Origin: Amycolatopsis mediterranei
Lineage (GTDB): Bacteria; Actinomycetota; Actinomycetes; Mycobacteriales; Pseudonocardiaceae
Assembly (NCBI RefSeq): GCF_026017845.1
Contig: NZ_CP100416.1
Location: 3,504,948-3,568,947 of the forward strand
Reading direction: 5' to 3'
DNA length: 64,000 bases
In this document: in pieces, positions 22,036-47,500 of the stretch
How the letters are laid out: each line of letters starts with the position of its first letter
Numbering within the stretch: position 1 is the stretch's first letter
Translations under genes and position numbers: made by a program
Notes under the pieces: generated by a model
The model's database searches: none
Told to the model about the DNA's origin: nothing
Seen by the model: the letters and a program-made list of their open reading frames with translations, nothing else

Positions 22036-25000
22036 GCCGGATCGAGCCCGTCGCTCACGACGCCGTGGTGCCGCTCTCGCCGGTCCAGCGCCGCCTCTGG
22101 GTGCTCGACCAGCAGAACCCCGGCAGCACCGAATACAACGCCGGGGTCGGCCTCACCCTCTCCGGCCCGCTGGACCGCGAAGCCCTGCTCGCCGCGCTGG
22201 ACGGGCTGGCCGCGCGCCACGAGTCGCTGCGGACGACGTTCCCGACCGTCGACGGCGAGGGCGTCCAGGTCGTCGCCGAGGAAGGCACCATCCCGCTGCG
22301 GGAAGCCGACGCCGAGGCGGACCTGGACGCGCAGCTCGCGGCCGAACTGGACCGTCCCTTCGACCTGGCCGCCGGACCGCTCACGCGGGCCACGCTGATC
22401 CGCCGTGGCCCGGACGAGCACCTGCTCCTGCTCTGCCAGCACCACATCATCACCGACGGCTGGTCCGTCGGCCTGCTCGTCGACGAGTTCGCCACGCTCT
22501 ACGCGGGGGAGAAGCCCGCGCCGCTGGACATCGGCTACCGCGACTACTCCCGCTGGCACCACGACCGGCTGACCGGGCCGTTGCGCGAGCGGCAGCTGGC
22601 GTACTGGCGCGAGCAGCTCACCGGCCTCGAGCCCCTGGACCTGCCCACCGACCGGCCCCGTCCGCCCGTCCGCGCCGGCGAGGGCGCGATCCGCCGGTAC
22701 GCGCTGCCGGCGGAGCTGGCCGGCCGGCTCGCCGAACTGGGCCACGACACCGGCGCGACGCTGTTCACGACGCTGACCGCCCTCGTCCAGGTGCTGCTGG
22801 CCCGCTACACCGGGCAGGACGACGTCGCCGTCGGCACCGCGGTGTCCGGCCGCGACCACGACCAGCTCGAACGGCTCGCCGGCTTCTTCGTCAACACCCT
22901 CGTCCTGCGGTCCGCGGTCGATCCGGCCCAGCCGTTCGACGCTTTCCTCGACCGGGTCAAGGAAACGACGCTGGCGGCCTTCGCCGCCGCCGAAGTGCCC
23001 TTCGACCAGGTCGTCGACGACCTGCGGCCGGCCCGTGACCCGAGCCGGACCCCGCTGGTGCAGGTCCTGCTGGTGCTGCAGCAGGACCTCGTCCGGCCCC
23101 GGGAGGCGGGCGCCCTCCGCCTGGGCGAGCACGATCTGCCCCGCCCCCGGGCCCGGTTCGACCTCGTGCTGGAGTTCCAGCCGCAGGGCCGTAGCGTCGC
23201 CATCGAGTACGACACCGCGCTCTTCGACGCCGCGACGATCGACCGCTTCGCCGGGCACCTGCGCGTGCTGGCCGAAGCGGTGGTCGCCGAGCCGCACCGG
23301 CCGGTGGCCGAGCTGCCGATCCTGGGCGACGCCGAGCTGGCCCAGCTGGCCGAGCTGTCGCGCGGACCGGTGCTCGAAGCGCCGGAAGCCACCCTGCCGC
23401 AGCTGTTCGAGGCCCAGGCGGCCCGCACGCCGGACGCGGTCGCGGTCGTCTGCGAGGACCGCTCGCTCACCTACGCCGAGCTCGACGAGCAGGCCACCCG
23501 GCTGGCCCGGATCCTGGCCGAGCGGGGCGCCGGGCCCGAGCGGTTCGTCGCCGTCTCCCTGCCGCGCACCGAACGGATCCTGGTGGCGCTGCTCGGCGTG
23601 CTCAAGTCCGGCGCCGCCTACCTCCCGGTCGATCCGGCCTACCCCGCCGACCGCCAGGAACTGATCCTCGACGACGCCGGCCCGGCCCTGCTGCTCACCC
23701 CGGACGGCCGCGGCCCCGGGTCCGTCCCCGCGCTCGCGTTCGACGACCCGGCTCTGCTCGGCGGCGTCTCCGCCGCGCCGCTCGCCCGCGCCACGAACCC
23801 GGACCACCCCGCCTACGTGATCCACACGTCCGGCTCGACCGGCCGCCCCAAGGGCGTCGTGGTCGCCCACCGCAGCGCCGCGAACCTGATGGCGTGGGCC
23901 GGAACCGACTTCGCGGACGTCTTCCGGCCCGGGTCCACCGTGGTCGCTTCGACGTCGCTCAACTTCGACGTCTCGGTGTTCGAGATCTTCGCGCCGCTGA
24001 TGACCGGCGCCACCGTCGAAATCGTGCGGGACGTGCTGGCCCTCGGCGAAGGCGAGCACACCGGCCGGCCGGTCGGCCTGGTCAGCGGGGTGCCCTCGGC
24101 GTTCGCCCAGCTGCTGGCCCAGGGCGCGGTGTCGCTGCGACCGTCCACTGTGGTCTTGGCCGGTGAGGCGCTGACGCGGCACGCGCTGCTCGACATCCGG
24201 AAAGCGTTGCCCGGCAGCCGGATCGCCAACATCTACGGACCCACCGAGTCCACTGTGTACGCAACCGCGTGGTACCACGACACCGACCGCACCCCGCCGA
24301 TCGGCCGCCCGATCGCCGGCATCCGGTCCTACGTCCTGGATCCCGGCATGCGGCCCGTGCCCGTCGGCGTGCCCGGCGAACTGCACCTCGGCGGCGCCGG
24401 GGTGGCCCGCGGCTACCTCGGCCGGCCGGGCCTGACCGCCGACCGGTTCGTGGCCGACCCCTTCGGCGAGCCGGGCGCCCGGATGTACCGGACCGGCGAC
24501 GTCGTGCGCTGGACCCACAGCTCGCTTTCCGGGGGTCCGGGTGGCGAAGCCCCCGGCCCGGGGCGAAGCCCCGGTTGTCGCAGCGGCGAGCTGGAGTACC
24601 TGGGCCGCGCCGACGACCAGGTCAAGATCCGCGGCTTCCGGATCGAGCCCGGCGAGGTCGAAGCCGCGCTGCGGCAGCACCCGGACGTCACCGAAGCGGT
24701 GGTGGTCGCGCGCACCGACGCCGGCCACCAGCGGCTGGTCGCCTACGTGGTGCCCGAGGCCCCCGCCGGCCTGCGCGAGTTCCTCGGCGCTTCGCTGCCC
24801 GCGCACCTCGTGCCGTCGGCGTTCGTGCCGCTCGACCGGCTGCCGCTCAACCCCAGCGGCAAGCTCGACCGGCGCGCCCTGCCCGCCCCCGACTGGACGG
24901 GCGGCACCACCCGCGTCGCGCCGCGCACCGAGACCGAACGGCTCCTCGCCGCCATCTGGGCCGATGCCCTCGGCCTGCCCGAGGTCGGCGTCGAGGACAA

Positions 25001-44545: not shown

Positions 44546-47500
44546 AGACAGACTCGTCGGTGACGGCCGCACCGTCGACGACATCTACCCGTTGACCCCG
44601 CTGCAGGCGGGCATGCTGTTCCACAGCCTTTTTGCGGGGGGTCCGGGTGGCGGAGCCCCCGGCCCGGGGCGGAGCCCCGGATGTGACAGCCTGCTCGATC
44701 CCACCGCCGACGCCTACGTCGACCAGGCGCGGATGCTCCTGGACGGTGTTCGCGACCCCGACGCGTTCGCGCAGGCCTGGCAGCAGGTCGCCGACCGCAC
44801 CCCGGTCCTGCGGACCGAACTCGTCTGGGAGGGCGTCGAGGACCCCCTGCAGGTCGTGCGGCACCGGGCGGTCGTCCCGATCACCCGCCACGACTGGCGT
44901 GGCCTGTCCGAAGCCGAGCAGACCGCCCAGCTGGACCGGCTCTCGGCCGGCGACGCCGCCACGGGCCTGGATCTCACCACCGCGCCGCTGATGCGGCTGG
45001 CGATCGTCGCGCTGACCCACGACCGCGTGCTGCTGATGTGGACCTCCCACCACATCGTGCTCGACGGCTGGAGCCTGGCCCAGATCTTCACCGAGGTGTG
45101 CGAGCAGTACGCCGCGATCACCGAGCACCGGATCCCGCGGGTGCCGGCGCACCGGCCGTTCCGCGACTACCTCGGCTGGCTCGCCGCCCAGGACGGCACC
45201 GCGGCCGAAGACCACTGGCGCGCGGTGCTTTCCGGCTTCGCCGCCCCGACCCCGCTGCCGTGGGACCGGTCCCCGGCGCAGGCGCACCGGACGCGCTCGT
45301 CGCGCACGGTCCGCGCCAATTTGTCCACAGAGGACACTGCCCGGCTGCGGGAGGTGGCCCGGCGCCACGGCCTGACCGTCAACACCCTCGTGCAGGGCGC
45401 GTGGGCGCTGCTGCTGGCCCACTCCAGCGGCGAGTCCGACGTCGTCTTCGGCACCACCGTCTCCGGCCGCCCCGACGACCTGCCGGGCGTGGAGACCATG
45501 ATCGGGATGTTCATCAACACCATCCCGACCCGGACCCGGATCGACCGCGGCGAGCGGGTGCTGCCGTGGCTGCAGCGGTTGCAGGACGAACAGAACCAGG
45601 CCCGGCGCTACGACTTCCTCGCGCTCGGGAAGCTGCGCGCCCTCAGCGACGTCCCGCCGGGGGAGAACCTGTTCGACAGCATGGTCGCGTTCGAGAACTA
45701 CCCCTTCGACGAGAACGCCGCCGCGCAGGCGGGCGTCACCCTGCGCGAGGTGACCGCCCTCGACGAGACCACCTTCCCGGTCACCCTGCGCGCCTACGTC
45801 GACCGGCAACTGGGCTTCGAGCTCGGGACCGACCCGGCGCTGTTCGACGAGGAAACCGCGGCCGCCATGGCGGCCCGGCTGGAGACCCTGCTGCTCGGGA
45901 TCGCCGAGAACCCGGACCGCCCGATCGCCCGGCTGCCGTGGCTGTCGGACGGCGACCGCGCTCAGCTGGTCGCGGCCGAGATCGCCTCGTTGCCCGCGCC
46001 GACCATCACCGAGCTGTTCGCCGCCCAGGTGGCGGCGAACCCGGACGCGGTCGCGCTCACCGGCGACGGCGGCTGCCTGACCTACGCCGAGCTCAACGCG
46101 CGGGCGAACCGGCTGGCGCACCGGCTGATCGAGCTCGGCGCCGGGCCCGAGCGGTTCGTCGCGCTGCGCCTGCCGCGCTCGCCCGAGCAGGTCGTCGCGA
46201 TCCTCGCCGTACTCAAGGCCGGCGCCGCCTACCTGCCGATCGACCCGGCCACCCCGGCCGAACGCGTCGAGCGGATGTGCGCCGACACCGACCCCGTCGC
46301 CGTCCTCGCACCGGAAGACGTAGACGTGGAAACGGGCCCGGACACCGATCCGCCGCTGCGCTGCACGCCCGACCACCCCGCCTACGTCATCTACACCTCC
46401 GGCTCGACCGGGCTGCCCAAGGGCGTGGTGATCCCGCACCGCAACGTCACCCGCCTGTTCGCCGCCACCGCCGGTCGGTTCGAGTTCGGCTCGCGCGATG
46501 TCTGGACGCTGTTCCACTCCTACGCGTTCGACTTCTCCGTCTGGGAGATCTGGGGCCCGCTGCTGCACGGCGGCCGGCTCGTCGTCGTGCCGCACTCGGT
46601 GTCCCGTTCGCCGCGGGAGTTCCTGCGCCTGCTGGCCGACGAGGGTGTCACGGTGCTCAACCAGACGCCGTCGGCGTTCTACCAGCTCATCCGGGCCGAC
46701 GAAGACGACCCTGGAGCCGGTGGCCGGCTTTCGCTGCGGTACGTGATCTTCGGCGGCGAGGCCCTGGACGCGCGCCGGCTGGCCGGCTGGTTCGCCCGTC
46801 ACGGCGACCGCGCGCCGCGGCTGGTGAACATGTACGGCATCACCGAAACCACCGTGCACGTCACCCACCACGACCTCGTGTCCGACAGGGACACAGTGGA
46901 CGCGCCGGGACTCATCGGCACCGCCCTGCCCGACCTGCGCGGGTACGTCCTCGACGCGGACCTGAACCCGGTCCCGGCCGGGGTGCCCGGCGAGCTCTAC
47001 GTCGCCGGCGACGGCCTGGCCCGCGGCTACCTCGGCCGGCCGGGGCTGACCGCCGCCCGGTTCGTCGCCGACCCGTTCGGCGCGCCCGGGTCCCGGATGT
47101 ACCGGTCCGGCGACCGGGTGTCCCGCACCCGCGAGGGTGCCCTGCGCTACCACGGCCGCGCCGACCACCAGGTGAAGATCCGCGGCTTCCGGATCGAGCC
47201 GGGCGAGATCGAGGCCACCCTGCTCGCCCTGACCGACGTCGGCTCGGCCGCGGTACTGGCGCGCGAAGACGAGCCCGGCCGCAAGCGGCTGGTCGCCTAC
47301 GTCGTCGCGGCGACGCCGGACGAGCCGCCGAGCACCGCGCGGCTGCGCGAGCACCTGGGCCGCTCGCTGCCGGACTACATGGTGCCCTCGGCGTTCGTCA
47401 TGCTCGACGAACTGCCGTTGACCCGCAACGGAAAGCTCGACCAGCGCGCGCTGCCGGCCCCCGCCGCGGCGGGACCGGAAAGCGCCGGGTTCGCCGAACC

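Follow-up and report, generated by a model that had tools for sequence, protein, structure and literature searches.

The window analysed here comprises 64,000 nucleotides (positions 3,504,948-3,568,947) of an Amycolatopsis genome that is assembled as one contig of 10.6 Mb and is referred to below as the own genome. It harbours two nonribosomal peptide synthetase (NRPS) genes, NRPS1 and NRPS2, which carry four copies of a repeat of about 60 bp composed of two adjacent hairpins. The features are listed below; coordinates count within the window, A domain stands for adenylation domain, and net gains are relative to empty sites in related genomes.

20277..38204 (called start; open frame 20139-38204), + strand: NRPS1, with five A domains; holds copies 1-3
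39900..59840 (called start; open frame 39027-59840), + strand: NRPS2; holds copy 4
24520..24584, + strand: copy 1, made of CTTTCC, hairpin I, hairpin II and a TTGTCGCAGC tail; core 24531-24572; in the A7-A8 loop of A domain 2; net +63 bp
24531..24554, + strand: hairpin I of copy 1, GGGGG-TCCG-GGTGG-CGNA-G-CCCCC, in whose stem a single base is bulged or mismatched, as drawn from the RNA fold of the consensus rather than of copy 1
24558..24574, + strand: hairpin II of copy 1, CCGGGGC-GAA-GCCCCGG, variants of which covary across the genome copies
28867..28931, + strand: copy 2; core 28878-28919; in the A7-A8 loop of A domain 3; net +60 bp
33199..33266, + strand: copy 3; core 33210-33251; in the A7-A8 loop of A domain 4; net +63 bp
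44626..44692, + strand: copy 4; core 44637-44678; in the N-terminal part of a condensation-type domain of NRPS2; net +63 bp

All four copies were found in frame and on the + strand, where an earlier reading made from the DNA letters (the sequence-only reading) had placed them. The core GGGGGTCCGGGTGGCGAAGCCCCCGGCCC gave these four window matches at ≤3 mismatches, compared with 0 in 100 shuffles. As that reading had also reported, copies 1 and 2 are identical at 60/60 bases. Copy 3 agrees with copy 1 along 56 bases, and copy 4 represents a slightly divergent variant. The net gains correspond to 21, 20, 21 and 21 codons for copies 1-4, rather than to the 21 or 22 added residues first proposed. 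Copies 1-3 sit between motif A7 (YRTGD) and motif A8 of A domains 2, 3 and 4 of NRPS1; the motif names and the position of the hinge are those we take to hold for adenylation domains. The remaining seven A domains of NRPS1 and NRPS2 have a short turn at this position and lack the insert. The domain containing copy 4 was matched by Pfam Condensation.

The structure of A domain 2 was predicted with AlphaFold2 from an alignment of the ten A domains of the window. In the best model (mean pLDDT 78.9, pTM 0.82), the insert residues 373-389 are predicted as a loop with pLDDT <50 between strands 359-369 and 396-401, with most of the rest confident. A sequence alignment to the solved A domain 6mfy places the insert within a gap. 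The low-confidence predicted loop and this gap fit an insert that would be tolerated by the A domain. The sequence-only reading had described the repeat as a source of flexible linkers, and a tolerated loop extension fits equally well.

A search of the own genome with the 42-bp core at ≤3 mismatches yielded 107 copies, 54 forward and 53 reverse, with 0 matches for the reversed-pattern control; hairpin I alone gave 128 matches at ≤2 mismatches. In total, 104 copies were extracted with their flanks, and 81 single copies were used for a consensus and for a test of target duplication. The consensus reads CTTTTC-GGGGGTCCGGGTGGCGGAGCCCCCGGCCCGGGGCGAAGCCCC-GGATGTCACAGC, and no strongly conserved base was observed beyond its ends. 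Head-to-tail arrays of two or three units with a period of 60-63 bp were also present (L210, L213, L217, L231, L246, L247, L252, L253, L275, L276). With gene calls made in this analysis, for which codon usage was trained on the two NRPS genes, 71/104 copies were called intergenic (40 between codirectional, 21 between divergent and 10 between convergent genes) and 33 lay in or at a called gene. The genome search thus bore out the suggestion of a palindromic repeat dispersed as DNA, with many copies between genes. RNA folding of the consensus predicted strong hairpins on either strand. For hairpin II, 21 double compensatory cells were counted among the genome copies, compared with approximately 3.6 in shuffles, and the pairs 28-42, 30-40 and 31-39 exceeded all 1000 shuffles.

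The repeat was detected with a loosened pattern in 33/80 Amycolatopsis genomes (own included), five of which had a single match, and with a stricter pattern in 0/24 genomes of other genera. When the exact pattern was searched over genomes of 84,980 species, 116 stretches were returned, and all 116 were titled Amycolatopsis. Named carriers include A. rifamycinica, A. kentuckyensis, A. vancoresmycina, A. vastitatis, A. bullii, A. eburnea, A. pretoriensis and A. iheyensis. Carriage by plasmids or phages was considered and rejected, collections of both giving no match at E 1e-5.

A stricter test for genic copies, demanding coding sequence on both sides and a reading frame that stays open across the copy (which leaves frameshifting insertions uncounted), retained 17/104 copies: the four in the NRPS genes and 13 others. 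The other hosts were genes for a methyltransferase, two MFS transporters, an M17 peptidase, a hydrolase, an SbcC-like ATPase, a SpoIIE-type protein, an acyl-CoA-ligase-like enzyme, a GH53 enzyme, a LysR regulator, an NRPS and two polyketide synthases. The 17 genic copies are spread 7, 5 and 2 over three sense frames and 2 and 1 over two antisense frames, one of these antisense frames having a stop in the consensus. The sixth frame was used by copies in sister genomes (e.g. L085, L099, L111). Of the first matches among genic sister copies, 6/26 proved by eye to be ordinary NRPS sequence lacking the repeat. Their exclusion left 20/146, of which L050 and L189 represent the same insertion. As five of the six frames are used by the genic copies, the repeat spreads as DNA, with no single peptide favoured overall. 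The SbcC/Rad50-like gene with an in-frame repeat lies at L222:456-3917 (own genome 1936540). Its product is thus related to a nuclease subunit that acts on DNA hairpins.

Using a 1.3-kb probe, the orthologous NRPS was recovered from 13 relatives, among the matches listed, and compared site by site; G072 was readable at site 1 only, and sites 1 and 2 of G017 were read across contig ends. Clean empty orthologous sites, which the sequence-only reading had proposed to look for, were found at all four NRPS positions. At site 1, the own genome and G017 carried the insert, and the other 12/13 relatives were empty. Site 2 was filled in the own genome, G017, G023, G027 and G063 and empty in 8/12. Sites 3 and 4 were each empty in 11/12, the former being shared with G025 and the latter with G088. 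The net gain at site 2 was 63 bp rather than 60 in G063, and that at site 4 read 60 bp against G089. Three other genic inserts of the own genome were compared in the same manner. The AMP-binding ligase insert was empty in 12/12 relatives, the alpha/beta-hydrolase insert was present in 2/12 and missing from 10/12, and the GH53 insert was empty in 6/6 relatives yielding an orthologue (12 searched). These inserts gave a net gain of 63 bp, or 66 bp in two hydrolase relatives in which the target was 3 bp shorter. Over 45 comparisons of own copies with sister loci, a sample that leans to shared sites as the loci had been chosen because they contain a copy, most sites were shared and some were empty. 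The family thus seems to include recent insertions as well as old ones.

Further insertions were seen in the relatives. G027, which is without copy 4, has an antisense copy in its NRPS2 orthologue (L194:3633-3674). In G091, an in-frame copy is present in the gene between both NRPS genes (L191:18996); the corresponding position is empty at window 39386-39388, with flanks matching the window at 90-91%. In the draft genome G017 (L199, L200, L202), contigs break exactly at NRPS copies 1 and 2. Draft assemblies can thus have their NRPS genes split by such repeats, and in at least one draft genome the NRPS assembly is broken by the repeat.

In the NRPS tree, the own genome grouped with G017 and then with G025, with support of 1.0 at both nodes, and the distribution of site 1 fits one gain in the own genome and G017. 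The carriers of site 2 did not cluster in a tree of the 400-bp flanks, in which G063 was placed with the empty G103 and G027 with the empty G091. Repeated gains or repeated clean losses are therefore needed at this site, and the lack of a scar at empty site 2 favours gains. The core of copies 1-3 recurs in only 3/100 non-NRPS extracted copies. Copies 1-3 of the own genome and the inserts of G017, G025 and G027 were nearest to other A-loop copies; for the inserts of G063 and G023, a copy from elsewhere was as near as the A-loop copies. Nine A-loop copies were seen, including two of G017, and all have one orientation and one frame. The scan of sister loci for A-loop copies had given eight matches, of which L069 was false and L050 was the same insertion as L189. 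Given the common core of copies 1-3 and their shared position in the A7-A8 loop, three independent arrivals are improbable and copying between modules is likely. The favoured history is that a mobile palindrome arrived, more than once at site 2, and was copied between homologous A-domain loops. The four independent invasions proposed in the sequence-only reading are hard to reconcile with the rarity of this core and with A-loop copies being mostly nearest to one another.

Most probably, the four inserts belong to a family of non-autonomous, double-hairpin interspersed repeats, with a net length of approximately 60-63 bp, that is present in part of the genus Amycolatopsis. These repeats would be selfish and would spread at the DNA level in the manner of repetitive extragenic palindromes (REPs) or Rickettsia palindromic elements (RPEs), with A-loop copying in NRPS1. 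Copies lie mostly between genes, and those within genes would persist where a net gain of a multiple of three meets a tolerant loop. An enzyme or a replication process might copy the double hairpin, probably in single-stranded form, and would leave no fixed target duplication. Within NRPS1, one insert may then have been multiplied to copies 1-3 by ectopic copying from one homologous A-domain loop to another. The encoded peptide would be mainly tolerated rather than selected. From in-frame insertion together with empty sister sites, it follows that selfish DNA probably lengthens the loops of NRPS enzymes.

Several results sit less easily with this explanation. Site 3 is filled in the own genome and G025 and empty in G017, the sister of the own genome, and site 4 is common only to the own genome and the distant G088; loss, allele exchange or a second gain is therefore also needed. 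The Y1/RAYT (REP-associated tyrosine) transposase, PF01797, the one transposase family searched, was found in 0/80 Amycolatopsis genomes, own included, and was rejected as the mobiliser; the control search was positive in 5/14 known genomes, E. coli among them. A general target duplication was not found among the 81 single copies in a test restricted to 9-bp windows, the best of 336 offsets having a z of 3.6 and none being coherent. As regards the hairpins, partners slid by +1 still gave 16 double cells, compared with 22 over both hairpins, and hairpin I by itself covaried no more than expected by chance (one cell, pair 6-16, compared with a mean of 2.45 in shuffles). The other four of the five AlphaFold2 models were poorer, with mean pLDDT 62-69.

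That the four sites each received their insertion independently, the A7-A8 loop being a true and repeatedly hit hot spot at the level of DNA or of tolerance, is a serious but somewhat doubtful alternative. It would account for the scattered carriers of site 2 (own/G017, G023, G027, G063), for the length of the G063 insert at that site, for the G063 and G023 inserts being as near to copies from elsewhere, and for the additional insertions in NRPS2 of G027 and in the inter-NRPS gene of G091. It does not readily account for the single orientation and frame of the nine A-loop copies, compared with five frames among the genic own copies, or for the identity of the G017 inserts 1 and 2 over 69 bp, although the draft contigs break there. 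A bolder extension, which we hold only tentatively and consider rather unlikely, is that a RAYT-free actinobacterial class of double hairpins repeatedly targets the A7-A8 loop by the hinge and then spreads from module to module. If this were true, the repeat would be a mobile element supplying megasynthases with loop extensions and might alter A-domain dynamics.

It appears unlikely that the repeat is a miniature inverted-repeat transposable element (MITE) of a resident insertion sequence, with terminal repeats and target duplication. At site 4 in G088, a 9-bp direct repeat, CACAGCCTG, is found on both sides of the insert, and by eye the two flanks of the hydrolase insert may have 6 bp in common, both of which would suit a MITE. 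Against this, the 81 single copies gave no consistent 9-bp duplication, no more than 1-2 bases are common to both ends of the ligase and GH53 insertions (by eye), and clear terminal inverted repeats were not seen by eye in the consensus. Neither a long autonomous version nor a copy split by a long insert was found in 20 regions with divergent or half-matching copies, where no transposase search was made. In a loose two-hairpin scan of these regions, both hairpins were matched close together in 15, the matches overlapping in L320 (a shrunken copy). Only one hairpin was matched in 5/20 (L321, L325, L328, L333, L334), L328 and L333 having a degenerate second hairpin by eye. The left flanks of single copies were weakly enriched for a CACAGC-like motif (6/83 vs 3.1%, p 0.046), and a looser form of the motif was found in 17/83 (vs 10.9%, p 0.0075). 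A subfamily with the core ...CCCCCGACCTGGGGC... (L224, L225, L249, L251, L217) often has CACCGACA-like motifs on both sides (by eye). As the CACCGACA-like motif is present once at the empty sister sites compared, this suggests a site preference.

A regulatory or terminator hairpin that spread for a function at the RNA level and entered genes by accident is very unlikely. The strong hairpins predicted on either strand and the mostly intergenic calls are in line with such an element; the 21/71 intergenic-called copies between divergent genes, the balanced orientation in the chromosome, the sense copies within open genes and the lack of Rfam matches in the window at gathering scores are not. An ancestral Gly/Pro-rich NRPS peptide conserved for function, for which the identical peptide at the A-loop sites might be cited and which the sequence-only reading would have recognised by filled orthologues throughout and no copies elsewhere, is refuted as the origin and hardly conceivable in view of the empty orthologous sites, the approximately 107 dispersed copies, the use of other frames and of the antisense strand in other genes, and the seven other A domains without the insert.

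Two antisense open frames of approximately 5,000 codons each were also noted on the minus strand opposite the NRPS genes (window 20271-35726 and 39684-54911). These are probably a by-product of G+C-rich codon usage.

Ogata et al. reportedly described the Rickettsia palindromic elements in 2000. According to the available parts of the papers that treat them, RPEs are palindromes inserted in frame in many genes, an RPE-bearing guanylate kinase is active, and the elements measure approximately 105-150 bp and have terminal inverted repeats (PMC10969869, PMC2229807); shorter families, RPE-4 and RPE-6, exist (PMC3733652, in part). The accessible text of PMC3733652 also reports GTAG and CGTC REPs within reading frames, many of them in repair genes, and notes that CGTC REPs seem to be without a dedicated transposase and that recB was hit at about the same site in two Xanthomonas. 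In-frame insertion of palindromes is therefore a known kind of event, and the statement in the sequence-only reading that no case had been described does not stand (PMC10969869, PMC2229807, PMC3733652, as far as their available sections go). Actinobacteria, Amycolatopsis and Streptomyces are absent from the main text of PMC3733652. In a literature text search, with subscription journals mostly outside its coverage, no paper printing GGGGCGAAGCCCC or GGGGCGGAGCCCC was found, and the reverse complement of GGGGCGGAGCCCC occurred in one unrelated virus paper. Among the matches listed, there was no description of palindromic repeats in Amycolatopsis, actinomycetes or NRPS genes, or of MITEs in Streptomyces or actinobacteria. 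In the literature searched, neither the repeat family nor its host group, its turnover within the genus or its recurrence in one A-domain loop appears to have been described.

Like bacterial MITEs such as Correia/NEMIS, ERIC and RUP, as portrayed in part of PMC2229807, the Amycolatopsis repeat is small and non-autonomous and forms some in-frame fusions; clear terminal inverted repeats and a consistent target duplication, which would mark a MITE, were not seen, with a 9-bp direct repeat only at site 4 of G088. With GTAG and CGTC REPs it has in common short imperfect hairpins that are mostly intergenic, dispersed and clustered, with some in reading frames (PMC3733652, available sections). The REP/MITE-type label given in the sequence-only reading is apt for dispersed, mainly extragenic hairpins and fails for REP membership. 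Unlike in GTAG REPs, the consensus ends are CTTTTC... and ...GGATGTCACAGC, the GTAG tag is absent, and no genome of the 80 encodes a PF01797 match. In CGTC REPs, as far as described in that source, a CGTC/TGTC tag precedes an 8-9 bp stem starting with A-T pairs, whereas in the Amycolatopsis repeat TGTC is found only in the 3' tail and is followed by ACAGC and no stem (by eye); moreover, the Amycolatopsis arrays are head-to-tail and the CGTC elements mainly head-to-head dimers (PMC3733652). Compared by description rather than by sequence, the repeat differs from classical RPEs in being about 60 bp long and very G+C-rich, with two adjacent hairpins. The many Amycolatopsis sister genomes allow gain, loss and enzyme effect to be measured site by site, and they offer natural pairs of adenylation domains with and without the insert, differing by approximately 20 residues near the hinge. 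A likeness in behaviour is also seen with the Rickettsia RPEs, whose mobiliser the available parts of PMC10969869 and PMC2229807 do not name: both are present as many palindromic copies, and both lie in frame in unrelated protein genes. In-frame selfish palindromes are thereby extended to Amycolatopsis, a genus of antibiotic producers.

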